A DNA stretch of 64,000 nt from Flammeovirga pectinis (GTDB taxonomy: Bacteria; Bacteroidota; Bacteroidia; Cytophagales; Flammeovirgaceae), in contig NZ_CP034563.1 of NCBI RefSeq assembly GCF_003970675.1, positions 558,001 through 622,000 of the forward strand. Reading direction: 5' to 3'. Shown here in pieces: positions 40,510 through 58,400 of this stretch (the stretch's first letter is position 1; each line of letters begins with the position of its first letter). The notes beneath the pieces are model-generated. The model worked only from the letters and a program-made list of their open reading frames with translations. It was not told the origin of the DNA and ran no database searches. The position numbers were made by a program, and so were the translations under genes.

Positions 40510-43500
40510 TTACTTCGCCATAATAATTTCATCTCTATATTCTGAGGGTGTTTTCTTGAATTCCAATTTAAAACACTTACTAAAATACTTTGGATCGTTA
40601 AAGCCAGTTTGGTAGGCAATATCTGAAATATTCAACTCTGGATCTTTCATTAAATCAGCAGCATATTTTAATCTAATATTCTTTATAAACTCATTAATTG
40701 ATAACCCAGAAATCGATTTCATTTTACGTAGTAAATGTCGTTTACTCATACCAAAATGTTCTGTAAAATCATCTACTCCAAAAGAGAAATTATCCATGTT
40801 GTCTTTTACAACTTGAATTGCTTTTCCTAAGAAATCATCTTCAACAACTTCTTTATTTAATGTAGCATACGATGTAGTAGATTGGAATTTCTGTACAAGC
40901 ATTTTACGAGTAGCCGCCATATTACTTACTTTCCTACGCAAGATATTAATATCAAATGGCTTCACTATATAATCGTCAGCTCCTGCACTGTATCCATTCC
41001 ATTGAGTTTCTTCACCAGAATAAGCAGTAAGTAAAATAACCGGTATATGCGATGTCTGAGGCTCATTTTTAATCAACTTACAGAGATCAGGACCATTCAA
41101 TTCAGGCATCATAATATCGCTAATTACAAAATCTGGTGAATATTCCATTACTTTTTCCAAGCCAATTTTCCCGTTTTCGGCCTCAATAATATTGAATGTA
41201 TTTATAAGATTTTCTTTAATATATCTTCTAATGTCATTGTTATCTTCAACAACTAATACAGTAAGGTTTTCGGCTTTAATTTCTTCATCGTTAATAACAT
41301 CAATTGTGTGTTCGCTTACAAAAGACATTTGGTCTAAATCTTCATTTATAGAACCCTTTTTTAAGGTATGCTTATTTGTTTTTTCAGCAGATGATAAAAA
41401 GTTTTCACCTGTTTTTAATCTGACAGTAAATGTAGACCCTTTGTCTTGTTCAGAAACAACATCAATGGTACCATGGTGTAAATCAACAAATTGTTTTATA
41501 AGTGCTAGCCCAATTCCAGTTCCTATTGTGGTTGAGTTAACACTGTTATTTGCTTGATAATACAGATCAAAAATATGAGCTTTTTGTTCTGTAGAAATTC
41601 CTAAACCAGTATCCATTATTTCTAAGAGAACTTCGTTATTTTCTTTTTTTATTGAAAATTGAATTGAACGATGATCTGGTGTATATTTAAATGCATTCGA
41701 CAATAAGTTAGTGATAATATTGTCCATTTTTTCAGCATCAAACCACATGATGTATTCTTCTTCAAAACTCTCAAAATGGAAATCAATTTTCTTCTTTTGT
41801 GCTAAAAGAGTAAATGATAGAAATCTTGATTTTGAGAAGCTCACAATATCATTTTTACTTGCCTTTAAATCAATATTACCAGATTCTAACTTTCTAAAAT
41901 CTAGTAGCTGATTTACATTTTTAAGTAAGCTATTGGCATTTCTAAACATTACATCATAATCCTCTTTTGGTGATGTACTTTCTCCTTGAATTAATTGTTT
42001 TAAAGGTCCAATTATCAATGTTAATGGCGTACGTAATTCATGAGAGATATTCGTGAAAAATCGGAGTTTTGCCTCGTTATTTTCTTGAACTTCTTGTAGT
42101 AAATTATTTATATTTTCTGATTGAGTTTCTAACTCATGATTCTGCTCTTTTAATAGAGAATTTTTATCGTTTAAATCATGGTTTTGTGCTGCAAGTAGCT
42201 CATTTACTTCCTTTATTGTAGAAGTAGCTCGGTTAACTTTAGCGGTTAACTTTTTCTTTTGTTCTTTTAATTGATGTACCCTCAGTTTATATAAAACTAA
42301 AAGTCCGATCACAATAGCAATAATAAATAATACTCTAAAAAGTGTTGTTTCCCACCAAGGTGGAATTACCGTTATTTTTAATGTTGTAGGCTGTGTATTC
42401 CAAATTCCATCATTATTAGAAGCCTTTACTTTAAAAGTATAAGTGCCTGGTTTTAAGTTATTGTAGTATGCATTTTTTCTATCATTTACATAATACCATT
42501 CATCTTCTAATCCCTCTAGCATATAGGCATATTGATTCTTCTTAGGGAGGATGAAATTTAACGCAGAAAATTCAAAAGAAAAGATATTCTCATCATGCGA
42601 TAATGTGATTTCATTTAATTCATCAATAGGTAAAGGTAATGGGCTGTTTTCCGTACCAAATTCAACTTCTTTATTAAAAAGTCTAAAAGATGAAATAACA
42701 GTTTTTGCTTGAACAGGATTTAACCAAATATCTTTAGGTTTAAAATAATTCAAACCATTGTTGCCCCCAAAATACATTGTGCCATCTGATTTTTGAAATG
42801 CAGCCTGAATTTTAAAATCAAGACCTTGTAAACCATCTTCTACTGTAAAAATATGAAAGTCAGGTTTTTCAGGAGTATGAACAGCATTAATATACTTTAC
42901 CAAACCACGTTGCGTGCTTATCCATATATTACCTTGCTCATCATCTAAAATACCTGAAATACTGTTTGAAGGAAGTCCGTCTTCTACAGTATAGGTGTAA
43001 GAAATATCACTATTTCTATCAAGGTAAATCAGTTTATTTCTTGTACCAATCCAAAGGTTTCCTCTTTGGTCTTCGTGACTACAAACTGTTGTAGAGATAT
43101 TAATTTTATATTGAAGGCCAATTGGTGTAAAATCATCTGTAGCATCATTATAAATATCAATACTACTACCTGTCTGAACTAATAAATTGCCTTTACTATC
43201 TTCAAAAACTTTCCCAATAAAATCATTAGAAATACTAGAGGGGTTTCCTACATCAGACCTATAATGTTTAAATGTATTGGTCTTTTTGTCTAACTTATTT
43301 AATCCTCCATGCATTGTACCAACCCATATATCTCCATTCTTTCTTTGAAAGATAGCACTTACATCATTTCTTGTTAGACTTTCAGGATTGTTTTCATTAT
43401 TGTAAAAGTGCTTCATTTTACCAGTTTTATAATCAATAAAGTCAAGACCACCATTAAAAGAGCCTACCCATAAGTTCTTATCCTTATCAGTTAACATACT

Positions 43501-44715
43501 TAAAATAACATCTCCAGAAAGGCCATCTTTTTTAGTAAGAAATGATGATTTTCCATCTTTTAAAATGGTAATACCACCTCCGTCTGTGCCTACATAAACT
43601 TCTTTATTTGGTCCTTCTGCAAAAGACAGTACATTGTTACTGCTAAGAATACCTTTTTTAATATGATTGAAATTTTTGTCCCATTTACTAAAGTAGTTTA
43701 CACCACCATTGTAAGTACCTACCCATAAAATACCACCTTTGTTATCGTAAAGCAGGCTATGTATTGAATTACTATTTATACTATTTGGAATACTATCATC
43801 GGGTAGTAAATCAATTATTTGATATGTTTTAGTATCAAGAATATGTAAACCACCACCTTCTGTACCTATATACAATTGTCCATTTTGGTTGCCATTAATA
43901 CATAAGATACTATTGTGTTTTAAGCCATCTTCAAGAGTATATTGTTTAAATGATTCCTCTTTCTTATTAAAACGATGTAATCCTCCGCCAAGAGTACCCA
44001 CCCAAAGCTGATTAAATTCATCTTCATAAACACTTGTAATAGTATTGTGAGACAACTTGTTATCTACCTCTTTCTTGAAATGTTTAAGGTATTTATTCTC
44101 TATCTGTATTTGATATAACCCATTATCTGTACCTACCCAAAGTGTATTCGATTTATCTTCATATATACAACGAACGGGATCTTTTATACTTCTTTTTTTA
44201 CCATTTTTGTTGTAGGTATAAGGTATAAAACTGTCAGTTGCATAATCATATTGTACTAAACCTTTTCCAGTGCCTATCCATAATCTATGGTCTGCATCTT
44301 CAAAAATGGCTTGTATTTTATCGTTTGGTATGGAAGATGTATTTTTTGGTTGATTTCGGTATGTTTTGAATGTATCTGTTTTCCTGTTGAGTAGATTAAG
44401 TCCCCCGCTAAAGGTACCTACCCAGAAGTTATTCCTAGAATCTTCAAAAATAGAAAGAACAAAGTGGTCTGATAGACCAGATTTATCGGTTTCATTACCG
44501 GAGTAGTTTTTAAATGAACTACCGTTATAACGGTTAAGTCCACTAATACCTCCAATCCAAAGGTATCCATTATTGTCTTTAGCCAAGCACTTTGCCCAAC
44601 TATGGTTTAACCCTTCGTTAATATTTAAGTACTCAAACTTAGGAGAGTCTTGTCCATAAGAAAACGAAGTTATTAAAATAGAAAAAAGAGAAAGTAAATA
44701 ATTAAAAAATTTCAT
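40510..44715 (-). CDS. Hybrid two-component system (HTCS) regulator
   Basis: I choose the ATG at 44715, which begins a signal peptide (MKFFNYLLSLFSILITSFSYG). The 1401-residue protein carries two beta-propellers of Reg_prop repeats (repeated LWVGT and LWIGT motifs, about 30-690), a Y_Y_Y domain (to about 780) and one membrane helix (about 785-815). Inside the cell it has HisKA with phospho-His in NISHELRTPL (about 890), an ATPase domain, a receiver with Asp in FVISDIMMPEL (about 1200), and a C-terminal AraC helix-turn-helix. HTCS proteins sense oligosaccharides in the periplasm and switch on their locus. The divergent operon and the 55477 gene are the likely targets. Confidence 0.96.
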   Translation of the reverse strand: MKFFNYLLSLFSILITSFSYGQDSPKFEYLNINEGLNHSWAKCLAKDNNGYLWIGGISGLNRYNGSSFKNYSGNETDKSGLSDHFVLSIFEDSRNNFWVGTFSGGLNLLNRKTDTFKTYRNQPKNTSSIPNDKIQAIFEDADHRLWIGTGKGLVQYDYATDSFIPYTYNKNGKKRSIKDPVRCIYEDKSNTLWVGTDNGLYQIQIENKYLKHFKKEVDNKLSHNTITSVYEDEFNQLWVGTLGGGLHRFNKKEESFKQYTLEDGLKHNSILCINGNQNGQLYIGTEGGGLHILDTKTYQIIDLLPDDSIPNSINSNSIHSLLYDNKGGILWVGTYNGGVNYFSKWDKNFNHIKKGILSSNNVLSFAEGPNKEVYVGTDGGGITILKDGKSSFLTKKDGLSGDVILSMLTDKDKNLWVGSFNGGLDFIDYKTGKMKHFYNNENNPESLTRNDVSAIFQRKNGDIWVGTMHGGLNKLDKKTNTFKHYRSDVGNPSSISNDFIGKVFEDSKGNLLVQTGSSIDIYNDATDDFTPIGLQYKINISTTVCSHEDQRGNLWIGTRNKLIYLDRNSDISYTYTVEDGLPSNSISGILDDEQGNIWISTQRGLVKYINAVHTPEKPDFHIFTVEDGLQGLDFKIQAAFQKSDGTMYFGGNNGLNYFKPKDIWLNPVQAKTVISSFRLFNKEVEFGTENSPLPLPIDELNEITLSHDENIFSFEFSALNFILPKKNQYAYMLEGLEDEWYYVNDRKNAYYNNLKPGTYTFKVKASNNDGIWNTQPTTLKITVIPPWWETTLFRVLFIIAIVIGLLVLYKLRVHQLKEQKKKLTAKVNRATSTIKEVNELLAAQNHDLNDKNSLLKEQNHELETQSENINNLLQEVQENNEAKLRFFTNISHELRTPLTLIIGPLKQLIQGESTSPKEDYDVMFRNANSLLKNVNQLLDFRKLESGNIDLKASKNDIVSFSKSRFLSFTLLAQKKKIDFHFESFEEEYIMWFDAEKMDNIITNLLSNAFKYTPDHRSIQFSIKKENNEVLLEIMDTGLGISTEQKAHIFDLYYQANNSVNSTTIGTGIGLALIKQFVDLHHGTIDVVSEQDKGSTFTVRLKTGENFLSSAEKTNKHTLKKGSINEDLDQMSFVSEHTIDVINDEEIKAENLTVLVVEDNNDIRRYIKENLINTFNIIEAENGKIGLEKVMEYSPDFVISDIMMPELNGPDLCKLIKNEPQTSHIPVILLTAYSGEETQWNGYSAGADDYIVKPFDINILRRKVSNMAATRKMLVQKFQSTTSYATLNKEVVEDDFLGKAIQVVKDNMDNFSFGVDDFTEHFGMSKRHLLRKMKSISGLSINEFIKNIRLKYAADLMKDPELNISDIAYQTGFNDPKYFSKCFKLEFKKTPSEYRDEIIMAK

Positions 44716-44877
44716 AGCACAGTGAATACATTGAGTTGAGTTAGTTATATAGAAACTGGTTATTAAGACCATTCTCTTATCAATGATAAATAGAATTATT
44801 CAAATTTAAAAATGAACTTAATATACATGTACTATAAATGATTAAATACACCAAATTGTTTTTTCTATTGGTGGAAA

Positions 44878-44904
44878 AATAGGTCAAATGTCTTTTTTTT
44901 ACCC
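44878..44904 (+). promoter_or_regulatory. Conserved block 1 (candidate HTCS site)
   Basis: AATAGGTCAAATGTC, eight bases, then ACCC. The counterpart at 55086-55112 reads AATAGGACAAATGTC, eight bases, ACCC. The core TGTC-N8-ACC also recurs in block 2. Confidence 0.55.
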
Positions 44905-45020
44905 TTTAAAGCCTATTTTTTAACAGAATCTAAGAAAACCCTTTACAATTGCTGAAATCTGCATTCTCAGTGGTGTATTCAAAGATTGTAAGAGCTGATA
45001 ACATAGTGAAATTCCATAGG

Positions 45021-45064
45021 TGTCTTAAATATCCCCTTATCAGTGTCTTGATTACACCTAATAA
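45021..45064 (+). promoter_or_regulatory. Conserved block 2 (candidate HTCS tandem site)
   Basis: This 44-base block matches 55228-55271 at 34 positions by hand count. It contains two TGTC-type half sites 23 bases apart (45021 and 45044), the second ending ACACCTAATAA. Direct repeats about two helical turns apart are what AraC-type domains usually bind. Confidence 0.65.
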
Positions 45065-45079
45065 AAACGCAAACTCCCT

Positions 45080-45089
45080 AAAATTGTAA
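45080..45089 (+). promoter_or_regulatory. Conserved block 3 (candidate core promoter)
   Basis: AAAATTGTAA lies exactly 15 bases after block 2, as does its copy at 55287-55296. The position, 77 bases before the first gene, suits a promoter element. The exact -33 and -7 boxes are not clear. Confidence 0.45.
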
Positions 45090-45165
45090 CATACTCTTCA
45101 ACTAAGCGCTACTAAGAAAGAGACGAAACAACTTTTTAAAAGACAATAAAGCAAAACGTATTGAG

Positions 45166-46719
45166 ATGAATTTTACAAAAACAACTTTATTAAAACTCTT
45201 TATTCTTACTATGTTAGGGATATCGCTCTCTTGTGAAAACAAGGAGACGTCGTTAGATATACCAATGCCAGTATTAGCAAAATACTCTTTTATAATTTCT
45301 GATGATACTATTGTAACTTTTACGAATAAATCTGTTGGAGCTACCTCTTATCTATGGGATTTTGGCGATGGCACAACATCTAATGAACAAAATGTTGAAC
45401 ACGTATTTCCAGAAGGAGAATTTGTAGTTAACTTAATGGCAGCTTCAGGAGCTACTGAAAACTCTTTTACTAGAGAGGTTAATATCTTTGTTCCAGAAAT
45501 TATCGAACCTGTAGATGTAGTAGCAGAGGCAAAGAAGATATTGGTTGGTACTGATGGTACTAAAAAATGGTCGATTGCTAAAGAATCCAAAGGATACTCA
45601 TTTGGTCCGTTAGACGATGAGACTATTGATTGGTTTGTTATAGATATGTATGATGAAAATGCTTTTACAACTAGAGTATGCCTTTTTAATCAAGAATTTT
45701 CTTTTACTACTGATGGAGTATATAATAGAGTATCAAATGGAGCACTTTGGAAAGAATGGCAAATTTTTGAAACTGAAGGATGTCATGACACAGAAAATGA
45801 GTTAGTGACAAATGCTGGTGCAAATGTAGAAGTTTGGGAAGATGGTGAATTTACCTATGAAATCACTGAAGAAGGTGGATATGCTGTAATCACAATAATT
45901 GGTTTAGGCGGTTATGTAGGGCATTATACAAGTGGAGTGGATGCATCAGACTTCTTGCCTCAGAAAGAACATAAGTACATTATTAAATCTGCAATACCAG
46001 GAAGAATAGAATTGTCTTCTTTAGGGTATAATGGAGATTCTAAAGCAATACCAAACAAAGCAGATCGTCTTGTAAGATTAATTTTAGTTCCTTCAGAAGT
46101 TACAGTAGAACCTGTAGATGAAGAGCCAGAAGAGCCAGTAGAAGAAGTAGATTTATCTTCAATAAAAACACTATTGTCTAGATCATGGTCAGTAGAAGAA
46201 AATACTGGAGCAGTTTCTTATGGTCCACTTGTGGGAGATGATGTTTGGTGGTCTTTATCAGAAAATGATGTGCTTGCTAGAACGTGTTTATTTGATTCAG
46301 AATTTACATTCTCTGAAGACGGAAGTTATTCAAGAGATGTGAATGGAACTATCTGGAAAGAATGGTCAATATTTACTGATGTTGAATGTGCAGATACATC
46401 AGACCCATTAATAAATATAGATGGTGAAAATGTAGACGCTTGGGGAGATGGTGATTTCACTTACGAATTAAGTGTAGTAGATAACGATACAATAATTACT
46501 GTAAATGGTATGGGTGGTTATATAGGCCATTATACTTCTGGAGTAGATTATGCAGATTATGTTGCACACGATGTTCATGAATATAAAATAACCTCTATTT
46601 CAGATTCAGAATTAAAATTATCGTCGAAAGGTTTTGGAGGGGATTCAAAAACTATTCCAGGGTATGACCCGAACAAGGCAGATAGAATTATAAAAATTTC
46701 TTTTGTACCTGCTAACTAA
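45166..46719 (+). CDS. PKD-domain surface lipoprotein with duplicated C-terminal module
   Basis: This 517-residue lipoprotein (ISLSC, Cys23) has a PKD domain (YLWDFGDGTTSNEQNVEHVF, about 40-110). It is followed by two copies of a roughly 185-residue module (about 120-310 and 335-517). Shared landmarks are KEW(Q/S)IF, the CLF(N/D)xEF strand, GGY(V/I)GHYTSGVD and a C-terminal NKADR(L/I). No catalytic motif is evident. It is the first gene of the locus, where SusE/F-like surface glycan-binding proteins would otherwise be. A glycan-binding role is inferred from position and domains. Confidence 0.87.
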   Translation: MNFTKTTLLKLFILTMLGISLSCENKETSLDIPMPVLAKYSFIISDDTIVTFTNKSVGATSYLWDFGDGTTSNEQNVEHVFPEGEFVVNLMAASGATENSFTREVNIFVPEIIEPVDVVAEAKKILVGTDGTKKWSIAKESKGYSFGPLDDETIDWFVIDMYDENAFTTRVCLFNQEFSFTTDGVYNRVSNGALWKEWQIFETEGCHDTENELVTNAGANVEVWEDGEFTYEITEEGGYAVITIIGLGGYVGHYTSGVDASDFLPQKEHKYIIKSAIPGRIELSSLGYNGDSKAIPNKADRLVRLILVPSEVTVEPVDEEPEEPVEEVDLSSIKTLLSRSWSVEENTGAVSYGPLVGDDVWWSLSENDVLARTCLFDSEFTFSEDGSYSRDVNGTIWKEWSIFTDVECADTSDPLINIDGENVDAWGDGDFTYELSVVDNDTIITVNGMGGYIGHYTSGVDYADYVAHDVHEYKITSISDSELKLSSKGFGGDSKTIPGYDPNKADRIIKISFVPAN

Positions 46720-46755
46720 TTTTTTGAACGCTATTCAGAAATAAAATCAACAAAG

Positions 46756-49700
46756 ATGAAAATATATATAAAAAGTTTATCTGTATTCAGTTTTATAATA
46801 GCAATGCTATTGAATACAGGGAACGCATTTGCTCAAGATGACTTTACGCTAACCGGTTTAGTAATAGATGAAAGTAACGAACCTTTAATTGGAGTAACTG
46901 TAGCATTGATAGGAGATTTTGAAACACCTGTTGGGACAACTACAGACTTTGATGGAAATTATAAAATATTAGTTCCAGAGGGAGTGACAGGCGTGTCGTT
47001 CCGTTATATGGGATACGAAACACAGACTTTTGATTTAACAAATCAAACAAATATTAGTGTAACACTAAAAGAAGATATAGATGTGTTGAATGAGGTTGTG
47101 GTTGTAGGGTACGGAACCCAAGAAAAGAAAGATGTTACTGGTGCCATGTCTTCTGTAGACAGAGAAGACTTTAATTCGGGTGTGATGTCAAACCCTACCG
47201 AACTTATTCAAGGTAGAGCAACGGGTGTACAGATAACACCAAGCAGTGGAGAGCCGGGTGCTGCTGTTTCTGTAAATATTAGAGGAACAAGTTCTGTACG
47301 TGGTAATAACGGTCCTTTATATGTAATTGATGGAGTTCCTTTAGGAGGTGGTGCATCTGCTTCGGGATCTGTAGGAGGTGGAAATCAGGCACCTAAAGAC
47401 CCTTTGAACTTTTTAAATCCAGATGATATTGAAAGCATTGATATCTTAAAAGATGCCTCTGCAACGGCAATTTATGGTTCTAGAGGATCGAACGGTGTAG
47501 TGATGATTACAACTAAGAAAGCTAAAAATCAAGAAGGTAAAGTTAGTTACTCAGCGTATGGTGGTATGGCATGGGTAAGAAAGAAAATTGATTTACTTTC
47601 TGCTGATGACTGGAGACTAAGTAGAGCTTTAATTGCACAATCAACTGGTGATTTATCATTTTTAGATTGGGATTATGGTGGAAAGACAAACTGGCAAGAT
47701 GAAATTTTTAGAACAGCCTATTCACAAAATCATAACTTGTCTGTATCTGGTGGATCAGAATCAGGTAACTATTTGGCCTCTTTAGGTTATATGGACCAAG
47801 AAGGAGTAATAGAAAGTTCTGGAATGAAACGTCTTACTGGTCGTTTAAATATTGAACAAAGATTATTAAATGATAGATGGAAAGTTGGTTTTAACTTATC
47901 TGCATCAACAATTAACGATACTTATGCACCTTTAGGAACAGGATCTGGAACAGGTGATACAGGGGCAAATAACTTGATTGGTAGTGCATTGAGAGGTAAC
48001 CCAACAATGCCAATTTATAACGAAGATGGCTCTTACTTTCAAACACCAACAGATGTCAATCCAGTAGCTTTAATTAATTTAATAAACGATGAGTCTGTAA
48101 CTGACCGCTATTTAGCCAATGTAACTTCAGATTTTAAAATCATAGAAGGTTTAAATTATAATTTGAGTATTGCCTATGATAGATCAAATGCTCAGCGTAA
48201 AGGTAGTCGTTCTAAAGATTTGCAAAGCGAGACAAATGGTACGGGTACAATCAGTAATAATCAAAATACAAACTTTTCAATAGAGAATTTTGTAACATAT
48301 TCTAAGACAATTGATAAACATAATTTCTCTGTTATGGGAGGTTTTTCATACCAAAAATTTGATTACGAATTTAACGGTATGTATGTAGATAACTTCTTTT
48401 CTTCTGCTGTAGATTACGCAGATAATTTAAATCAGGCAGCAAACAAACAAGCATCTAATGTTTGGTCTGGTGGAGGTTCTTCTGAACTGCAATCTTATTT
48501 TGGTAGATTTAATTACAGCTTTAATGATAGGTATTTAATTACTGCATCTATGAGAGCAGATGGTTCTACTAAATTTGGAGACAATAATAAGTATGGTTAC
48601 TTTCCAAGTGCAGCATTAGGGTGGAGAATTTCTGAAGAAGCATTTCTATATAATTCTGATGTAGTATCTAACCTTAAATTAAGAGGTGGTTGGGGACAGA
48701 CTGGTAACCAAGAAATTCCAGATCATATTCCTTTAATGATCTACAATCCAGTGACGGTAAATGATGTGAAAACATACGAGCCAGATCATCAGCCAAACGA
48801 GGATATTAAATGGGAAACTACAACACAAGCAAACATAGGTTTAGACTTTGGTTTCTTTAATGATAAAATTTCAGGTACGTTAGATTACTTCCATAAATCA
48901 ACAACAGATTTATTATTTAAAGTAGATTTAACGCCTCCAGCATTAGCAACAGTTGGGTATGTAAACTTACCTGCTCAATTAATAAATAAAGGGTTTGAGG
49001 CGTCGTTAAAAGTATATTGGATTACAGACGGAGATTGGGAGTTTTCATCAAACGTTAACTTCACAATGATCGAAAATAATATTCAAGGTTTAGATAATGA
49101 TGCAGTAAGAACGGGTAGATTAAACGGGCCTGGTATCTCAAGTACACAAGTTCAAGTTATTCAAGACAACTATCCATTACAGACTTTTTATACAAGAGAA
49201 TTTAGAGGTTTTGATCAAGAAGGATATTCTATGTATACCAATGCAGAAGGTGGTACAACAAGTTCTTCTGATGCAGCAGTGGAAAGACATTTGGGGTCAC
49301 CACACCCAGATTATATGTGGAGTTTAAATAATACCGTTAAATACAAAAGCATAGATTTTTCTGTATTTATTGATGCAAAACACGGACAGAATATTTATAA
49401 CAACACAGCACATGCATTCTATAACAAAAGGATGTTATCTCAGGCAGGGAATACAACGTATGCCAATTTAATGTCAGAGAAAAACCTTGATCAAGAAGCA
49501 ATTACTTCTTCAGAATTTATAGAAGATGCAACTTTCCTTCGTTTATCAAACATCACTTTGGGTTACAACTTTAATACATCTAACATTTCTTGGATGAGTG
49601 GTGCTAGAATTTACGCAACAGGGCAAAACTTATTTGTATGGACAAACTATACAGGTTATGACCCTGAAGTAAATGCAAGTATGGACGTAAATGGTTACCC

Positions 49701-49773
49701 ATCATTTGGTATAGATTATACATCTTATCCACGTCCATCTACAGTAATCATTGGTATTAATGTTAATCTTTAA
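46756..49773 (+). CDS. SusC-like TonB-dependent outer-membrane transporter
   Basis: This 1005-residue protein has a signal peptide (1-26), a carboxypeptidase-D-like sandwich (LIGVTVALIGD, TDFDGNYKI), the EVVVVGYG box, a plug (VNIRGTSSVRGNNGPLYVIDG, IYGSRGSNGVVMITTKK) and a large barrel ending IIGINVNL. It imports the locus oligosaccharide with the SusD encoded 11 bases downstream. It is a different lineage from the SusC at 3499 in loop content. Confidence 0.96.
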   Translation: MKIYIKSLSVFSFIIAMLLNTGNAFAQDDFTLTGLVIDESNEPLIGVTVALIGDFETPVGTTTDFDGNYKILVPEGVTGVSFRYMGYETQTFDLTNQTNISVTLKEDIDVLNEVVVVGYGTQEKKDVTGAMSSVDREDFNSGVMSNPTELIQGRATGVQITPSSGEPGAAVSVNIRGTSSVRGNNGPLYVIDGVPLGGGASASGSVGGGNQAPKDPLNFLNPDDIESIDILKDASATAIYGSRGSNGVVMITTKKAKNQEGKVSYSAYGGMAWVRKKIDLLSADDWRLSRALIAQSTGDLSFLDWDYGGKTNWQDEIFRTAYSQNHNLSVSGGSESGNYLASLGYMDQEGVIESSGMKRLTGRLNIEQRLLNDRWKVGFNLSASTINDTYAPLGTGSGTGDTGANNLIGSALRGNPTMPIYNEDGSYFQTPTDVNPVALINLINDESVTDRYLANVTSDFKIIEGLNYNLSIAYDRSNAQRKGSRSKDLQSETNGTGTISNNQNTNFSIENFVTYSKTIDKHNFSVMGGFSYQKFDYEFNGMYVDNFFSSAVDYADNLNQAANKQASNVWSGGGSSELQSYFGRFNYSFNDRYLITASMRADGSTKFGDNNKYGYFPSAALGWRISEEAFLYNSDVVSNLKLRGGWGQTGNQEIPDHIPLMIYNPVTVNDVKTYEPDHQPNEDIKWETTTQANIGLDFGFFNDKISGTLDYFHKSTTDLLFKVDLTPPALATVGYVNLPAQLINKGFEASLKVYWITDGDWEFSSNVNFTMIENNIQGLDNDAVRTGRLNGPGISSTQVQVIQDNYPLQTFYTREFRGFDQEGYSMYTNAEGGTTSSSDAAVERHLGSPHPDYMWSLNNTVKYKSIDFSVFIDAKHGQNIYNNTAHAFYNKRMLSQAGNTTYANLMSEKNLDQEAITSSEFIEDATFLRLSNITLGYNFNTSNISWMSGARIYATGQNLFVWTNYTGYDPEVNASMDVNGYPSFGIDYTSYPRPSTVIIGINVNL

Positions 49774-49784
49774 GCTGAACAATT

Positions 49785-51401
49785 ATGAAATTCAATACAT
49801 ATAAATCTTTAGCAGTAGCCTTTGTATCGATGCTGTCGGTAGGGTGTACGAATTTAGAACCAAATACAGACTTTCAAGTAACGCAAGAGAAATACTATGC
49901 GGAACAAAGAAAATCAATTTTAGAAGATCCAACTAAGCTAAGTGCTTTATCATTACCTGCGTATTCATCACTTTTCCAGTTTATGGGAGAAAGAAATATT
50001 TACGCACTAACAGAGGGGTCTACAGATGAAATGATGACACCAACAAGAGGAAATGATTGGAGTGATAACGGACTTTGGTTACAATTACATAAACAAGAAT
50101 GGGGAGCAGATCATCTTATTGTAGAAAATGGATGGAACGATATGTCGGTAGGTATATCTAGAACATTTAATACATTAAAAGATATCTATGATATTGGTGA
50201 TGGTGATGAGTATTTCTTAGAAATTGCACAACCTTATCTTGCAGAAGTAAGATTTTTGAGAGCATATTATGTTTGGCAAGTACTTGATTTATTTGGACAG
50301 GTACCTTATAGAAACGAAGACGGAGTAAACGTAGCTTTAGATAGAGTTACTGCTACAAATTTGGTTATTCAAGAATTAGAAGAAATTACCCCTCTTTTGT
50401 TTGAGAAAAAAGACCAACCTGAATATGGTAAAGTAGTAAGAGAAACAGGACATGCTTTACTTTCTAAAGTATACCTAAATCGATTTATATACAATGGAGA
50501 ATCTTCTGCATCTAAAGAAGATATGGATAAGGCAATTGAGCATGCAGATGCTGTTTTAAATTCACCTAGTTATAGATTGGCTGATGATTATTTCCAACTT
50601 TTTGATTTCAATAATCAAGATAGCCCAGAAGCATTATTAATAATTAGAAATGGTTACAATGTATCTAGTGAGTTTTCTGGACAGACAAGAGCTTTAATGA
50701 CTTTACATTATTCTCAAACGGGAGGAACTGCAGCTTTACAGCCTTGGAACGGGATGTGTACTACAGAAGAGTTTTTCAATTCTTGGGATCAAGATGGTAT
50801 TAATGGCAATGGTGTAGAAACAACAGATTACCGTTTTCAAGATACTAGATACTTACAAAGTACAGGTCTAAATTTAGGTTTACTAGAAGGTCAACAATAC
50901 AGTACTTCTGGAGTTCAATTAAAGGATAGAAACGGTAATTTATTGGCCTACACTGCAGAAATAGCAGACATATCAAATGCACAAGAGTTTGAGGGAGTAA
51001 GAGTATTAAAATGGGCACCAGATCAGCTTTCTGAGAATTTCTGGAGAGCAAATAACGATGTGGCATTACTTAGATTTGCAGATGTGTATTTAATGAAAGC
51101 AGAAGCACTTTGGAGAAATGGAGATGCAGCAGGTGCACTAACAATAATTAATGACTTAAGACTAAGAAGAGGAAATACAGTACTTTCTTCAATTGGTGTA
51201 GACGGACAAGAAATTTTAGACGAAAGAGGTTTTGAATTGTATTGGGAAGGCTACAGAAGAACAGATTTAGTTCGTTTTGGTCAGTTTACAAAAGGCACTT
51301 GGGCCGGTAAAGATGTAACTACAGAAGATAGAAATATATATCCGATACCTTCATCAGTATTAGTATCTAGTGATGGTTTTTCTCAAAACAGTGGCTACTA
51401 G
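49785..51401 (+). CDS. SusD/RagB-family glycan-binding lipoprotein
   Basis: This 538-residue lipoprotein (LSVGC, Cys21) has SusD hallmarks: AEVRFLRAYYVWQVLDLFGQVPY in the helical region, FADVYLMKAEALWRNGDA, and the C-terminal ERGFELYWEGYRRTDLVRFGQF. It partners the preceding SusC in surface glycan capture. A short GC-rich hairpin follows 23 bases after its stop. Confidence 0.95.
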   Translation: MKFNTYKSLAVAFVSMLSVGCTNLEPNTDFQVTQEKYYAEQRKSILEDPTKLSALSLPAYSSLFQFMGERNIYALTEGSTDEMMTPTRGNDWSDNGLWLQLHKQEWGADHLIVENGWNDMSVGISRTFNTLKDIYDIGDGDEYFLEIAQPYLAEVRFLRAYYVWQVLDLFGQVPYRNEDGVNVALDRVTATNLVIQELEEITPLLFEKKDQPEYGKVVRETGHALLSKVYLNRFIYNGESSASKEDMDKAIEHADAVLNSPSYRLADDYFQLFDFNNQDSPEALLIIRNGYNVSSEFSGQTRALMTLHYSQTGGTAALQPWNGMCTTEEFFNSWDQDGINGNGVETTDYRFQDTRYLQSTGLNLGLLEGQQYSTSGVQLKDRNGNLLAYTAEIADISNAQEFEGVRVLKWAPDQLSENFWRANNDVALLRFADVYLMKAEALWRNGDAAGALTIINDLRLRRGNTVLSSIGVDGQEILDERGFELYWEGYRRTDLVRFGQFTKGTWAGKDVTTEDRNIYPIPSSVLVSSDGFSQNSGY

Positions 51402-51424
51402 AAGTTAGATGTGTGAATTTTTTT

Positions 51425-51443
51425 GGGCAGCGAATCGCTGCCC
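51425..51443 (+). other. GC-rich intercistronic hairpin
   Basis: GGGCAGCG (51425-51432) pairs perfectly with CGCTGCCC (51436-51443) around AAT, in an otherwise AT-rich 70-base gap between susD and the next gene. No T-run follows, so it more likely protects or marks the end of an upstream mRNA segment than terminates. Confidence 0.6.
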
Positions 51444-51471
51444 ATCTTTAAAATCAAAAACAATTAGTAAG

Positions 51472-52707
51472 ATGAATACTATAAAAAATATACTCTTTAC
51501 AATCTGTTCAACAGCTCTTTTATCTGCCTGTACAACCGAAAATGTAATTTCAGATTTTCCAATTAAAAAAGGTGTGGTAGAGCATGAAGCTGTGCCTGTA
51601 GCAAAATCAAATAATAAGAAAGTGTATATGCACTATATGCCTTGGTTTGAGGCTAAAGGTGATTACTCTTCAGATTGGGGGAGCCATTGGACAATGACTA
51701 ATAAAAACCCAGATGAATTAATTGACGGAACTATTCCTGATATTGCATCGCATGTGCATCCTTTAATTGGACCTTACGATTCTCGTGATCCAGATGTAAT
51801 TAATTACCACTTACTTTTAATGAAATATGCTGGTATTGATGGTTTATTAATCAACTGGTACGGTACGGAAGGAACAAACCAAGATATTGATTCTCTTTTA
51901 CAGAATTCGAACGCAATTATTGAAGAGTTAGATGATGTTGGCTTAAACTTCTCTGTAGTAATGGAAGATCGTTTTGCTAACGAAGAAACACCTTTTGATG
52001 ATATCACTGCTAATATTAAATATCTAAGTGATAATTATTATGGAAGAGATGAATACATCAGAATTGATGGAAAACCACTTACAATGATTTTCGGACCATT
52101 CCAATCTGGAGACGTAGAGTGGACACAAGCGCTTGGAGCATCGCCAGAAGACGAACATTTTATTCCTCTTCAGAATAATACTAAAATTAATACTGTTGCA
52201 GATGGAGATTTTGCATGGCCCGGTTCAGGAGATATCAGTGATATAGAAAACTACTATAAGAATGCAGATCCAAATAAAATATCTGTAGGTGGTGCTTTCC
52301 CTGGATTTAAAGATTTTTATGTTGAAGGTGGCTATGGTGAAGTAATTGTTGGTGGATGGGAATACCCATTAGGAGCATCACAAATGAAATCGACATTAGA
52401 TTTAGCTTCAAACTACGGAGATAAAATCGACTTTTTACAGCTTATTACTTGGAACGATTTCGGAGAAGGAACAACAATAGAACCTACAGTAGAATATCAA
52501 TTTGATTTCTTAGTAGAAGTGCAAAAATATACAGGCGTAAGTTACTCAGTTACAGAACTAGAAATGGTTTACAATTGGTTTAATCTTAAAAATGATCCTA
52601 GATACCTTGCAAATAGATCTTTTAGAGATAAGGTAGATCAAATTTATTTTAACCTTGTTTCTACAAGAGTTTCAGAAGCTACTGATTTATTTACTGAACT
52701 TCAATAA
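51472..52707 (+). CDS. GH71/GH99-like glycoside hydrolase lipoprotein
   Basis: The ATG at 51472 yields a lipoprotein signal (STALLSAC, Cys20). The earlier in-frame ATG at 51409 would cross the hairpin. The 411-residue protein has the family layout: VYMHYMPWFEAKGD at the start of the barrel, YAGIDGLLINWYG, FSVVMEDRF and TWNDFGEGTTIEP. In GH99 the last motif normally carries two Glu three residues apart; here they are Asp329 and Glu332. The TWND-GE form is also seen in GH71 alpha-1,3-glucanases. An endo-acting alpha-glycanase is likely, with alpha-glucan or alpha-mannan unresolved. Confidence 0.85.
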   Translation: MNTIKNILFTICSTALLSACTTENVISDFPIKKGVVEHEAVPVAKSNNKKVYMHYMPWFEAKGDYSSDWGSHWTMTNKNPDELIDGTIPDIASHVHPLIGPYDSRDPDVINYHLLLMKYAGIDGLLINWYGTEGTNQDIDSLLQNSNAIIEELDDVGLNFSVVMEDRFANEETPFDDITANIKYLSDNYYGRDEYIRIDGKPLTMIFGPFQSGDVEWTQALGASPEDEHFIPLQNNTKINTVADGDFAWPGSGDISDIENYYKNADPNKISVGGAFPGFKDFYVEGGYGEVIVGGWEYPLGASQMKSTLDLASNYGDKIDFLQLITWNDFGEGTTIEPTVEYQFDFLVEVQKYTGVSYSVTELEMVYNWFNLKNDPRYLANRSFRDKVDQIYFNLVSTRVSEATDLFTELQ

Positions 52708-52722
52708 ACTTAATTTAAAAAC

Positions 52723-54795
52723 ATGTCAATTAGAAAATTAATTACAACATTGATTATTGGGGGTACACTCTCTTCATGTCAATTATTCGATAGCTATAAA
52801 GAAACAGATGTTGTTCTTTCGTCTCCAGGAAATCATTTAGAATTAACTTTTAAAATGATAGATGGAGCACCAAAATATGAACTTACATTTGATCAAGAAC
52901 AAATTATTTCTACTTCAGATTTAGGTTTTGTATTGAAAGATCAACCCAACTTATTAGATAACTTTGAGGTTGTAGATATTCAAAAAAAATCTATTGATGA
53001 ACAATGGGAAACAGTATGGGGACAAAGTAAAGAGGTAGATAACAACTTTAATGAACTTACGGTTTATCTTAAAGAAAAGTCTACTCATCCAAGAGAAATG
53101 CAACTCATTTTTAGAGTATTTGATGATGGATTAGGCTTTAGATATTTTATCCCTACACAAGAGAATATTTCTAAAATAGAAATCATGTCGGAAGAAACGA
53201 CATTTAATTTAGTAGACAATTATAAAGTATGGTACCAACCCTGCGATACAATTGTAACCAACTGGGAACACGGTTTTGATACTTATGAACGTCTTTATGA
53301 GAAAGCACAAATTGCAGAGGTAAAAACGTTAATGCATACACCTGCTACTTTTGAAACGAAAAGTGGAGATTATTTGAGTATTCATGAAGCAAATCTTACA
53401 GATTACTCTACAATGACTTTGGATAGAGGTACTAAAGGAACATCATTTGAGTCGTATTTAGTGCCATGGCCTGACGGTGTGAAAGTAAAAAGAACTACAC
53501 CAATGTACACACCTTGGAGAACTATTCAAGTAGGTCATAATCCTGGAGATCTTGTAGAATCAAACATCATTTTAAATTTAAATGAGCCCAATAAGATTGA
53601 AGATGTTTCTTTTATAAAACCAATGAAATATTTAGGGGTTTGGTGGGAAATGCACATGAACAAATCTACTTGGGAACAAGGACCAAACCATGGTGCAAAT
53701 ACACAAAACACTAAAAAATATATTGATTTTGCAGCATCAAATGGTCTTGGAGGAGTATTGGTAGAAGGTTGGAATAAGGGATGGGAAGACTGGATTACAA
53801 ATCCAAATTTCAATTTTGTAGAGCCCTATTCTGATTATGATTTAAAATATTTAGCAAGTTACGCCAAAGAAAAAGGAGTAGAATTAATAGGTCATCATGA
53901 AACAAGTGGTGATATTTTAACCTACGAAAACCAAATGGACGATGCTTTTGATCTTCTTGAAAAGAACGAGATGAATGCATTAAAAACAGGTTATGTAGGT
54001 AAAATTAGAGCAGAAGAAGAAGGGCAACATCACCATGGGCAGTATATGGTAAACCATTACAGAAAGGTATTAGAAACAGCTGCTAAACATAAAGTTTGCG
54101 TTGTTGCACACGAGCCAATAAAGCCAACGGGAATCCGTAGAACCTACCCAAATATGTTAAGTAGAGAGGCAATGCGAGGTATGGAATACAATGCTTGGAG
54201 TGATGGAAATCCAGCAAGTCACACTACAATATTACCATTTACAATGGGGTTAGGTGGACCTTTAGATTACACGCCAGGTATTTTTCAGACAAATTTTGAT
54301 AAATATAGAAAAGGAAATTCTACGCATACAACAGTTGCAAATCAGTTGGCATTGTATGTAGTGTTGTACAGCCCTGTACAAATGGCAGCAGATTTACCAG
54401 AACATTATGAAGGAAATCCAGCATTTCAGTTTATTAGAGAAGTACCTACAGATTGGGAAGAATCTAAAGTGTTAACTGCAGATATTGGAGAGTACGTAGC
54501 AGTGGCAAGGAAAGATAGAAAAAGTAATGATTGGTATATCGGTGCAATTACAAACGAACAGAAAAGAGCATTAGAGATACCAATAGATTTCTTAGAAGAT
54601 GGAAAGGAATACATTGCAGAAATCTATGCAGATGGTACAAATGCAAGTTATAAAGTAAATGCTACTGATGTAGACATTAAGAAAGTGAAAATTAAAAATG
54701 GTGAACATCTTTCTATGCACTTAGCAGAGGGAGGCGGACAAGCAATAAGAATACATGAAGCGGCTACTGGAGAATATGTATCTATGACAGAATAA
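52723..54795 (+). CDS. GH97 alpha-glycosidase, inverting type
   Basis: This 690-residue lipoprotein (GTLSSC, Cys19) has the N-terminal sandwich, a TIM barrel (KYLGVWWEMHMNKSTW, GLGGVLVEGWNKGW) and a C-terminal sheet domain. Catalytic glutamates are visible: Glu393 in HHETSG, Glu464 in AHEPIKPTG and Glu488 in RGMEYN. They correspond to Glu439, Glu508 and Glu532 of SusB with the same 24-residue gap between the last two. That pattern marks the inverting alpha-glucosidase branch rather than the retaining alpha-galactosidase branch. It probably trims oligosaccharides made by the preceding enzyme. It ends in a terminator. Confidence 0.93.
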   Translation: MSIRKLITTLIIGGTLSSCQLFDSYKETDVVLSSPGNHLELTFKMIDGAPKYELTFDQEQIISTSDLGFVLKDQPNLLDNFEVVDIQKKSIDEQWETVWGQSKEVDNNFNELTVYLKEKSTHPREMQLIFRVFDDGLGFRYFIPTQENISKIEIMSEETTFNLVDNYKVWYQPCDTIVTNWEHGFDTYERLYEKAQIAEVKTLMHTPATFETKSGDYLSIHEANLTDYSTMTLDRGTKGTSFESYLVPWPDGVKVKRTTPMYTPWRTIQVGHNPGDLVESNIILNLNEPNKIEDVSFIKPMKYLGVWWEMHMNKSTWEQGPNHGANTQNTKKYIDFAASNGLGGVLVEGWNKGWEDWITNPNFNFVEPYSDYDLKYLASYAKEKGVELIGHHETSGDILTYENQMDDAFDLLEKNEMNALKTGYVGKIRAEEEGQHHHGQYMVNHYRKVLETAAKHKVCVVAHEPIKPTGIRRTYPNMLSREAMRGMEYNAWSDGNPASHTTILPFTMGLGGPLDYTPGIFQTNFDKYRKGNSTHTTVANQLALYVVLYSPVQMAADLPEHYEGNPAFQFIREVPTDWEESKVLTADIGEYVAVARKDRKSNDWYIGAITNEQKRALEIPIDFLEDGKEYIAEIYADGTNASYKVNATDVDIKKVKIKNGEHLSMHLAEGGGQAIRIHEAATGEYVSMTE

Positions 54796-54819
54796 TTAAT
54801 TATAATATTCGAGCTGATC

Positions 54820-54848
54820 AAAGGCCTCCTTTATAAGGGGGCTTTTTT
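54820..54848 (+). terminator. Intrinsic terminator after GH97
   Basis: AAGGCCTCCTT pairs imperfectly with AAGGGGGCTT around TATA, followed by seven T residues. Confidence 0.7.
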
Positions 54849-55085
54849 TGTTATTTTAGGTTGTATTACTACTGCTCTAGAATACTTTTTATATCTAAAA
54901 GGAGAAGTACATTAATTGATGGAATTGAAATGTTTGATCTATTCGATAGGCCTGATAGAATTGGCTTCGTACAAGTAAAGTATTCTTTATCATTACAGAA
55001 GTAGTCAGATCGTTAGCAACTGATAATAATTTAAAGTAGGGTACTTATAGATATTCACTAGAATAGAACATTTTTAAGGGTGAAT

Positions 55086-55112
55086 AATAGGACAAATGTC
55101 GATTTATTACCC
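55086..55112 (+). promoter_or_regulatory. Conserved block 1, second copy
   Basis: AATAGGACAAATGTC, eight bases, ACCC. It differs from the 44878 copy at one of the first fifteen bases. Confidence 0.55.
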
Positions 55113-55227
55113 CGTGTAAGTCACTTTTATCAAGTAGTAGTTATTCCTTCTGATTTCTCTTTAAAATAGCCAATAGATAGTGTTTAAGGCTGTTTTTAAT
55201 CAAATATTTGATGTGGAATAACAATGT

Positions 55228-55271
55228 GGTCTTAAAATTACCCCTTAGAGTGTCTTATTTACACCTAATAA
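55228..55271 (+). promoter_or_regulatory. Conserved block 2, second copy
   Basis: GGTCTTAAAATTACCCC followed by AGTGTCTT and TTTACACCTAATAA. The two half sites are 23 bases apart, as in the 45021 copy. Confidence 0.65.
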
Positions 55272-55286
55272 GATGAGGTATCCCGT

Positions 55287-55296
55287 AAAATTGTAA
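55287..55296 (+). promoter_or_regulatory. Conserved block 3, second copy
   Basis: AAAATTGTAA, exactly 15 bases after block 2, identical to 45080-45089. Confidence 0.45.
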
Positions 55297-55476
55297 TATC
55301 CTAATCAAGCAAATCGCGAAGCTAGAGAAGGATATACTAATTAATGAATCATTTACCAGTATGAAATAATAAAGCAATCTATTTAACCAACTATTGTAAG
55401 CATTACTACTGGCCTTACAAAAACTACTAAAATTACTTTTTATGTTGATGGGCTACCATCATTAGATTTATATTTT

Positions 55477-58400
55477 ATGAAGAAGTTATTACAAAAAATA
55501 GTATTCTTAGCGGTTTTAATTACTCCGTGTTTTGTTTTCGGACAAGACGAAACAATTGATCAAACAATGTATATTGATTTTGGTCCAAATGATGTGACAA
55601 ATGGAGATGAAACTACGGGTGAAGATACAAATGGTAATTATTGGACCAATGTAACGAACGCACTTTCTAGTGGAGGCCCAATAACTATTGTAAATACATT
55701 AGATGAAGAAACTAATATTAGTTTACAATTAGAGACCACATTTGGAAAGAATGGAAAAAATCATGGTGGATTAAAAACTCCAGAGGAAGAAAAATTAGCT
55801 GATTTAGCAATTGCTACTGCTACTCAAGATTACTTCTTTACAAGTGGTACTTGTGGTATTAGATTATCTGGCTTTGATAAAGATAAACAATATAGGTTTA
55901 CTGCTTTTGGTAGCAGAGGCGATGGAGTTCCAAATCGTTTTACTGAGTATATGTTTTCTGGTTTAAATACGGAAAAAGGAGTGTTACAAACATCATTCTC
56001 TTTTAAAGGGAATACAGAAAACGTCTATACAACAGGATATATTTTCCCAGATGCAGAAGGAGAAATATATTTTACGGTTACTAAGGTGAGTGGGTTAGCT
56101 TACTTGAATGCATTAAAGGTTGAAGAAATTACTTCGGATGCAGAATTTAATGCTGTAACAGCAATGGTAATTAATCCGGTAGATCTAACCTCTCCATTGT
56201 TATCAAGACAAATAGAGTATACTATTGAACCAGCAAACGCAACTGTTAATACAATTGAGTGGGTTGTGGACAATGAAATGATTGCAACAATTGATGCTGA
56301 CGGTGTTATCCACCCTAAAAGAAATGGTACAATTACAGTTACAGCAACAAGTAATGATATTGGAGCAGATCTATCAGAAGAATTTGAAATGGTAATCGCT
56401 AACCAACCTGAAAATTTATATTTAACAGGTAGTGCTTTAGATGATGATAAGGATAGACTATTTAATTATAGTCCAGATGTAGATACACTATTCAGTAATA
56501 TATTCTATGCTTATGTTCCTTTAATAGAAGGAGAATCGTTTACACTTTATAATATGAACGAAAACCAAGAGCAAATAGCTTATGGTATTGATGCTGAAGG
56601 AACATTAGTACAAGATGGTGATCCAATTACTGTTACAGAAACAGCACCTTATAGAGTAAAGATTGATTTTAATACACAATCTATAGTAGTAGAAAAAATT
56701 ACTAACTGGAAATTAGTAGGTACACAAACTCCAGGTTCTTGGGGTAGTAGTGAAGGTCCTGAAATTGAATATCAAGGAGGAAGTATTTGGCAATCTACAG
56801 TAACATTACAACGTGACGAAAATGAAACTTACGATGCGATGTTATTAAGAATGAATGATAGTTACTTAATGGGTTCACTGTGGAGTAACTTTTCTAAACT
56901 GAGTTATAAAGATGATGAGGATATATTTGGAGGAATTCGTAATTTTCCATTACCAGATGGTGAGTATATTTTCACATTAGATTTAGAAAATTATACTTAC
57001 TTAGTAGAAGCTCCTGCGGTGGATGATATGGGAATTGTATTTTGTGGTTCTTCTGTATGTGGAGGCTTTGGTGCATTAACAGCAGAAGATGGTTCTTATA
57101 CCGGATATGCATATAACTACACTACTTTATTAGAAGATAGAACAGCGAATGGAATTGGCAAAAATTGGAATGTGAAAAATGTTTCGATTGGCGGTGATAA
57201 TACAATTAAAGTAAATAACCGATGGGATTTAGATGTTGCTTCTGCAGGGTCAAAATATTTAGTAATTGGTTTATCAATGGGTAATGAAGGCCTAATGAGT
57301 GGTGGTCAAGTAGTTTTTGATCAATTTAAAGAGAACCTTACTGGCTTAATTCAAAGAGCTAGAGACGAGGGAATGGTACCTGTAATTATGAGTAATTACG
57401 CTAATGGTCGTTACGATGAAACGGATTATGCTTTTGTAAAAGAGATGAACTTATTGATTCATCAATGGGATGTTCCATCTATGAACTTATTGGGTGCATT
57501 GGATAACGGAATGGGTCAGTTTATCAATAATGATGATAATGAAGACAAGGACTACGAAAGAGATCCAGCACACCCTAATCAAAAAGGGCACGATGAATTT
57601 TTGTATGCAATGGTTCCGTCTTTATTCGATGCCTTGTACAACGAGAAACCGCTACCAACAAGAATGATGAATTCTTCTTTAGCAATGCATGATTTATCTC
57701 AATTAAATAACTTGAATTTTACACCTGACGGAACAGTTCATTCTTTCACAAATAGTGTTTATTTTAAAACAGATAGTGAAGGAAACTTGGTAACATTTAC
57801 ACAAGGTGAAGTAAAAGGAACGTTGGCTGTAAATGCAGATGGATTTATTGCTTATACATCTCCAACAGGAGACGAATTAGTTGGCCCTACCGTCGTAAAT
57901 GATGACGAATGGCATTTACTTACACTAACGCATTATTACGCAACTGAAGCAACTTTCTTATATGTAGATAAAGAAATTCAAGGAGCTGTTTCAGAACAAT
58001 TAGTACCTGAAATGTTCCAGTTAAATAACAACGCCGAAGCAACAAGTCTTAGTTTTAAAGAGTGGTTTTTCTACCGTGCAGGTATGAATAAAGAGGAAGT
58101 TGATGCAATTGCAGACGGTATGATGTTAAAATCATCTTTAGAATTATATGCACCTTTAAATAGTGATGTAACATCTGAAGAACATGTTATGAACTATGCA
58201 CAAAGTACTGTGAAGATTGAAATTGATGCAGATAAGACTGCTCAAACAATAGATTTTGGTGCTATCGAAAGCATGACATACGGTGATACGACGTATACAT
58301 TATCAGCAACAAGTTCTGAGGGTTTACCAATAACTTATGCAACTTCTAATGAAGATGTAGCAACAATTGATGGACAAACATTGACAATTTTAGGTGCAGG

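Follow-up and report, generated by a model that had tools for sequence, protein, structure and literature searches.

The HTCS-linked locus

The window, a stretch of 64,000 nucleotides from Flammeovirga pectinis, holds a polysaccharide utilization locus (PUL) in which two promoters, A and B, lie 10 kb apart and carry the same composite of conserved sites beside the gene for a hybrid two-component system (HTCS) regulator. The source genome (G000) comprises 6.68 Mb in three contigs. The HTCS gene occupies 40510..44772 on the minus strand; its product joins a periplasmic propeller and a Y_Y_Y domain to HisKA, HATPase, receiver and AraC-type domains in a single chain (Pfam), the architecture that defines an HTCS. 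The gene diverges from a plus-strand operon at 45166..54795 that encodes a PKD-domain protein, SusC, SusD, a GH99/71-like protein and a GH97 protein, as assigned by Pfam and by matches to solved structures, with intergenic gaps of 7-36 bp. About 140 residues of the GH99/71-like protein match endo-alpha-mannosidases, and the solved structures nearest to the GH97 protein are alpha-glucosidases.

The 3' end of the operon is followed on the plus strand by a terminator-like hairpin with a T-rich tail (54820..54846). The hairpin search detected three hairpins in 54700-55500, two of them overlapping at 54820-54846, against 0.2 expected, and the hairpin at this position is largely kept in the second species described below. 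Downstream on the same strand lies the gene for a secreted protein of 1502 aa (55477..59985), consisting of a GDSL-like hydrolase domain, Ig-like and MBG repeats, and a type IX secretion C-terminal domain. The GDSL match is marginal (33.8 bits, Pfam cut-off 32.9) and that stretch gave no solved-structure match at 0.01; the protein is referred to below as the esterase, a putative activity. Because the terminator would end the operon after the GH97 gene, the esterase would need a promoter copy of its own.

A composite site at promoters A and B

An earlier note on this DNA described three blocks in the same order upstream of 45166 and of 55477, and every coordinate, identity and offset in that description proved correct. 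The first block, AATAGG[T/A]CAAATGTC-N8-ACCC, lies at 44878-44904 and 55086-55112 (23/27 identical), followed by a 44-base block at 45021-45064 and 55228-55271 (34/44 identities) and by AAAATTGTAA at 45080-45089 and 55287-55296, identical in both copies. The offset between the first two blocks is 143 bases in A and 142 in B, and that between the last two is 15 in each. Two details of the description required revision. The first block is longer than had been given, extending to 35-37 bp, approximately the size of a dimer site. The two proximal half-sites, 23 bases apart, both have TGTC in A, whereas in B the first of them reads GGTC, and AGTC in the second species, so that this half-site is imperfect there.

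All elements of the composite lie on the plus strand. In promoter A, the distal block of 35 bp (44870..44904) carries a half-site TGTC-N8-ACCC at 44889 and is separated by linker A (115 bp, 44905..45019) from the proximal direct repeat (45021..45058), which comprises TGTC-N8-CCC at 45021 and TGTC-N8-ACC at 45044, 23 bp apart. The -7-like element TAAAATTGTAA follows at 45079..45089. In promoter B, the distal block of 35 bp (55078..55112) has its TGTC-N8-ACCC at 55097, linker B spans 114 bp (55113..55226), and the proximal direct repeat (55228..55265) is composed of GGTC-N8-ACC at 55228 and TGTC-N8-ACC at 55251, again 23 bp apart, with TAAAATTGTAA at 55286..55296. The 35-bp pattern GGKKGAAWAATASGWCAAATGTCKWTTTWTTACCC matches distal blocks A and B and both of their orthologs with zero mismatches. 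By eye, distal block B reads GGGT-N9-GACA-AA-TGTC-N8-ACCC, a near inverted repeat, and its ortholog was scored by a repeat finder as a 27-nt inverted repeat with 78% complementarity.

In 4/4 promoters, the distance from the TGTC of the second half-site in the proximal repeat to the start of TAAAATTGTAA is 35 bp, leaving 20 bp between the end of that half-site and the element. With one mismatch, the element resembles TAnnTTTG, the -7 box of Bacteroidota promoters, and the consensus TTG is missing from the -33 position. As a separate feature of promoter A, a perfect 9-bp inverted repeat, AAAAATAGG/CCTATTTTT (44875-44883 / 44912-44920), flanks the distal half-site; the repeat finder did not find it in the second species.

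Uniqueness in the genome

The resemblance between the two promoters is uneven along its length. Across the A and B upstream regions, the best ungapped 70-mer has 50 identities, where the best of 300 dinucleotide shuffles reaches 41, and the best 37-mer has 28 against a shuffle maximum of 27. When the comparison is restricted to the distal parts, the lead over the shuffles is small or vanishes (28 against 26 for the 37-mer, 42 against 42 for the 70-mer). The half-site by itself is insignificant, occurring seven times in the window where 3.9 are expected, and 9/100 shuffles reach seven. The strong evidence is the uniqueness of the sites in the genome together with their conservation in a second species, beyond the A/B similarity itself.

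The longer patterns match the source genome at promoters A and B only. The distal 35-mer with at most 3 mismatches has two matches in G000 and two in the related genome G006, with none in either for the reversed-pattern control; the proximal pair with at most 1 mismatch also has two in each, with 0 and 1 for the reversed control. The motif search that had been proposed as a check returned, within these mismatch limits, no further copy in G000 or G006.

Conservation in a second species

The locus is present in 2/9 genomes of the genus, the source and G006. In G006 the gene order is the same, the HTCS is 92% and SusC 98% identical, and the first start codon of the HTCS ortholog lies slightly further inside. 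The blocks occur both before the orthologous operon and before the orthologous esterase in this species, the single relative in which the locus was detected. Two outcomes named in the earlier note as refutations, absence of the blocks at orthologous operons and their presence at many unrelated genes, were therefore looked for in these genomes and not seen. Compared across the two species, the distal blocks are identical at 34/37 (A) and 35/37 (B) positions, the proximal blocks at 39/39 (A) and 38/39 (B), and TAAAATTGTAA at 11/11 in both promoters. The linkers drift to 87/115 (A) and 64/114 (B) and keep their lengths, with zero indels in both. Beyond the composite, the 60 bp upstream of distal block B agree at 14/60 positions ungapped, and those upstream of distal block A at 58/60. 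The distance from the distal TGTC to the second proximal TGTC is 155, 155, 154 and 154 bp in the four promoters, and the half-sites of the proximal repeat lie 23 bp apart in all of them.

For comparison, 14 HTCS-neighbourhood regions were entered into footprinting; four found no counterpart in the paired locus of G006, and the other 10 were used, with 200 columns cut from each end. These aligned regions contain 31 gap events per 538 mismatches, a rate at which 4.5 indels would be expected over the 78 linker mismatches. None is observed, and the probability of none is roughly 0.011, an approximate figure since one of the 10 regions, L121, is itself free of gaps. Linkers A and B, which differ by one base in length, match each other only at the level of shuffled sequence: allowing one gap, 43/114 positions agree in the source genome, where 526/5000 shuffles are as good, and 45/114 in G006 (216/5000), in agreement with the earlier view that the intervening sequence is not alike. 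As the blocks are nearly invariant, the linkers drift without indel and the A and B linkers are unlike each other, the spacing is held and the linker sequence is free. The blocks and their spacing appear, from these alignments, to be under selection.

The same comparison bears on an origin by recent duplication of a promoter fragment, or as ends of a mobile element, with no shared regulation. Such an event would be expected to leave two stretches that resemble each other and run in the same direction, as are seen here at a distance of 10 kb. However, the linkers retain no residual similarity while the blocks are alike, both copies lie at orthologous places in G006, and no other copies were found in the genome; this origin is therefore very improbable, and mobile-element ends were rejected on the orthologous positions and diverged linkers. 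The preference for selection on sites over recent duplication is upheld, and an old duplication may be the origin of the two copies.

Several further features of the species comparison stand apart from the composite. Region L121 (12235-12486, with L134) precedes a further HTCS-linked operon in the same two members of the genus and contains, at a distance of 43 bp, the words TGATTTGCACC, which has a single change in G006, and TGATTTGACCC, which has none; it is perhaps another multi-site HTCS promoter. Region L126 (18863-19444) holds the species-conserved TGTCAAAATTTGACC, also of the form TGTC-N8-ACC, before a different HTCS-linked susC. The esterase leader (55297-55476) is 180 nt long, with 163/180 aligned columns identical in G006 and a small hairpin at 55446-55461 directly 5' of the start codon. 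Its RNA folding scores are z -1.35 and -0.20 in the window and -2.59 and -1.13 in G006. Rfam gave no match at gathering score in 44700-55700, and two sub-threshold matches there are regarded as chance.

The adjacent HTCS as proposed regulator

We assign a probability of roughly 0.72 to the reading that both promoters form the regulon of the adjacent HTCS, including the binding mode proposed here. The HTCS is put forward as the binder because of its adjacent gene, the half-site geometry, the published operator layout and an unusual residue in its recognition helix. According to Ravcheev 2013 (PMC3878776), predicted operators of HTCSs linked to susC/susD are direct repeats with an average distance of 21 bp. 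The present sites agree with this layout in that the direct repeat spans about two turns (23 bp in four promoters), precedes an HTCS-linked susC/susD operon, and is kept before orthologous genes in one relative.

The AraC-type DNA-binding domain of the HTCS is encoded at 40513-40875. Its first recognition helix, presumably SKRHLLRK by analogy with AraC-family structures, carries Arg as third residue. Among 66 distinct AraC-type domains, drawn from part of the collected loci, Arg occupies this position in two, this HTCS and its ortholog; the other domains have Ser, Thr, Met, Val, Pro, Ile or Gly. The same Arg is found in both AraC/DJ-1 regulators that adjoin TGTC direct repeats in other genomes. 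The link between the half-site TGTC-N8-MCC and this Arg in two unrelated regulator groups is suggestive, the sample being very small.

In the proposed mechanism, the HTCS would phosphorylate its own receiver upon sensing its oligosaccharide, and its paired AraC-type domains would then bind the proximal direct repeat. Each half-site would fit one AraC-type domain, with TGTC and MCC lying in successive major grooves. The second half-site, which ends 20 bp before the -7 element, could substitute for the missing -33 contact and thereby recruit RNA polymerase. The esterase, lying beyond the terminator, would carry a separate copy of this switch. The identity of the sites, their uniqueness, their conservation and their spacing are observed directly; the binding protein, its control by phosphorylation, the polymerase contact and any looping are inferred.

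Searches with the full-length HTCS covered 58 genomes; those with its DNA-binding domain covered 390 from the order and 395 from the class, with at most 10-11 candidates scored per genome. The domain of the ortholog is 98% identical and the next among the matches listed is at most about 50% identical, so that no wider family of sites can be traced. A SusC search of genome contigs gave 188 relatives with a best identity of 36%, a search in which records very close to the source genome may be omitted. The pair motif is not enriched around the best 80 of these 188 (3 matches against 5 for the reversed control). In the 13 regions L035-L047 it has four matches (control 1): the two G006 promoters, a site in L041 that precedes a VOC gene, and a fourth match in L037.

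TGTC direct repeats in other genomes

Scanned across the order, the pair pattern occurs at 23 places in 20/390 genomes, and the reversed pattern at seven. Matches in G050, G085, G113 and G263, which looked like chance or tandem-repeat matches, were set aside, and 16 regions were examined, 15/19 from the order-wide scan together with L041. The counts at first suggested a broad HTCS motif, but the regions examined belong to another regulon, and the scan gives no evidence for a wide distribution of such HTCS operators. The signature of that separate regulon is TGTC-N8-MCCC-N6-TGTC-N8-ACC, mostly with TAnnTTTG 23 bp later, before VOC, AHSA1, DinB or DoxX-type genes. Sites of this kind include L072 8752, L073 8597, L080 8921, L082 8831, L084 8198, L086 8183, L088 8330, L089 8124 and L041 7956, among others. 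The TAnnTTTG box stands 23 bp after the last CACC in 12/16 regions and 22 bp after it in one, and is absent from three. Eight downstream proteins were compared with Pfam: seven are of VOC, AHSA1, DinB or DoxX type (DinB below the cut-off) and one has no match. None of the 16 sites lies directly before a SusC-like gene; L080, L082, L083 and L085 have one 2-5 kb off. Two sites adjoin AraC regulators with a DJ-1 domain.

The repeats linked to AraC/DJ-1 regulators resemble those of A and B in being TGTC-N8-MCC direct repeats and in the Arg at the same helix position of the two linked regulators. They differ in their 22-bp spacing, in the arrangement CACC-N23-TAnnTTTG found in most, and in their unrelated target genes. 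No further TGTC-N8-MCC half-site was found within 400 bp of the repeats in the 14 regions checked. Elsewhere in the order, L077 8413-8493 contains tandem 22-bp repeats of TGTCCACCGATTACCCAGATTA.

Such closely similar repeats, two of them beside AraC/DJ-1 regulators, raise the possibility that an unlinked AraC-family regulator, instead of the HTCS, acts on the composite. Both places found in the source genome, however, lie in the PUL beside the HTCS, and the spacing to the -7 element is 20 bp here against 23 bp in 12/16 of those regions; an unlinked regulator is accordingly considered improbable.

The distal block

The distal block contains the same half-site, TGTC-N8-ACCC, in A (44889), in B (55097) and in both orthologs, as expected of a remote operator that shares its half-site with the proximal one. 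It is found solely together with the proximal pair, approaches a dimer site in size, and is held at 154-155 bp. In the proposed mechanism, the distal block would be a second HTCS dimer site in inverted arrangement, a step less sure than the proximal binding, and the 154-155 bp would be fixed because two bound dimers interact, by looping or within one membrane-tethered complex. If the HTCS reading is right, the odds that the distal block acts with the first site as a second HTCS site are about even by our estimate. It is a rather doubtful extension that a membrane-tethered HTCS holds the distal inverted site and the proximal repeat at 154-155 bp in a loop anchored to the inner membrane, and that the promoters 10 kb apart may share one membrane-bound regulator cluster.

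The main rival to the HTCS at this block is a different protein, such as a global regulator of carbon use or another factor specific to the locus, with the HTCS bound at the proximal repeat. An extra conserved AATAGGWCAAA, absent from the proximal half-sites, and the differing arrangement of the block speak for it, and an HTCS-controlled arabinan locus in Bacteroides is also under the CRP-like BT4338 (PMC5061871). A global regulator, on the other hand, should have many sites, as with the 834 bound locations of BT4338 by chromatin immunoprecipitation sequencing (ChIP-seq; PMC6989115), whereas the distal block occurs twice per genome and contains the same TGTC-N8-ACC half-site. A different protein here is thus a minority prospect that deserves serious weight, and a global regulator of the BT4338 type is unlikely. 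The BT4338 site TATGTTnTAnAACATA was tried on the four promoters and rejected, the best matches reaching 9-10/14 positions, a level that shuffles also attain. The consensus of E. coli CRP fits at most 7/10 positions in the four promoters, a count taken with no shuffle baseline.

The distal block of promoter A might instead serve mainly to autoregulate the divergent HTCS gene, the copy at B being of secondary importance. Some 100 bp separate the block in A from the start of the HTCS gene, and 58/60 positions are conserved on that side. Promoter B has no divergent gene, the GH97 gene running in the same direction, yet the block is kept there at the same spacing, which leaves autoregulation as its main role a slim prospect.

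Discussion

The two-promoter composite is, as judged from sequence comparison, real and selected, and the regulon, very probably that of the adjacent HTCS, is one of a known kind that carries an unusual remote site. In E. coli araBAD, AraC acts at araI1-I2 and at araO2, a remote operator about 210 bp away. That system shares with A and B direct-repeat half-sites next to the polymerase site and a remote operator; it differs in forming a repression loop, and the distal site here looks inverted and stands at 154-155 bp against about 210 bp. The operators of HTCS_Hep, HTCS_Man and HTCS_Rgu in B. thetaiotaomicron, as far as the accessible text of PMC3878776 describes them, are also direct repeats of about two turns upstream of operons in HTCS-bearing PULs, and with HTCS_Hep a separate enzyme gene, the BT4675 heparinase, shares the site too. 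They differ in an average of 21 bp against 23 bp here, and no 35-bp site 154-155 bp upstream is described in that portion of the paper. The SusR operators covered in the same portion likewise consist of two sites at a long fixed distance; their centres lie 67 or 77 bp apart against 131-155 bp here, and the DNA-binding domain of SusR is not AraC-type (PMC3878776). No report of a remote HTCS operator was found in the literature searched, which was largely without subscription papers and in part represented by partial texts.

Several observations weigh against assigning both sites to the HTCS. The inverted distal arms were left unscored by the repeat finder in promoter A and in the window copy of B, as was any inverted repeat in the G006 copy of A, and the distal block of promoter A has a weaker inverted arm (TGAC for TGTC). 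Neither 23 nor 154-155 bp corresponds to a whole number of helical turns, which leaves a simple same-face geometry unproven; the 154/155 bp are kept without indel, and no homolog with shifted spacing was found for a comparison of phase. The scarcity of indels is not unique to the composite, region L121 likewise showing no gap across 54 mismatches. A single pair of species underlies the conservation, the locus occurring in 2/9 genomes of the genus. The pair motif has no match within the 1.5-kb flanks of 28 HTCS loci whose DNA-binding domains are 39-50% identical, and none (control 1) in the surroundings of 13 other HTCS-type genes in G000 and G006, covered by 26 regions of roughly 20 kb each.

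HTCSs are a main class of glycan sensor in Bacteroidota, and their predicted operators in the literature are simple two-site repeats, to judge from the available part of PMC3878776. The promoter pair described here, in which the linker sequence differs and the sites and spacing are the same, opens the question of remote HTCS operators to direct test. One recognition-helix residue is a candidate specificity determinant, common to unrelated AraC-family regulators that lie beside the same kind of half-site. The predicted regulon would comprise six genes, including the secreted esterase. In conclusion, because the same control sites are kept in two related species at fixed spacing, the arrangement suggests that one membrane sugar sensor, perhaps aided by the unusual remote site, may switch on both the uptake operon and the secreted esterase.

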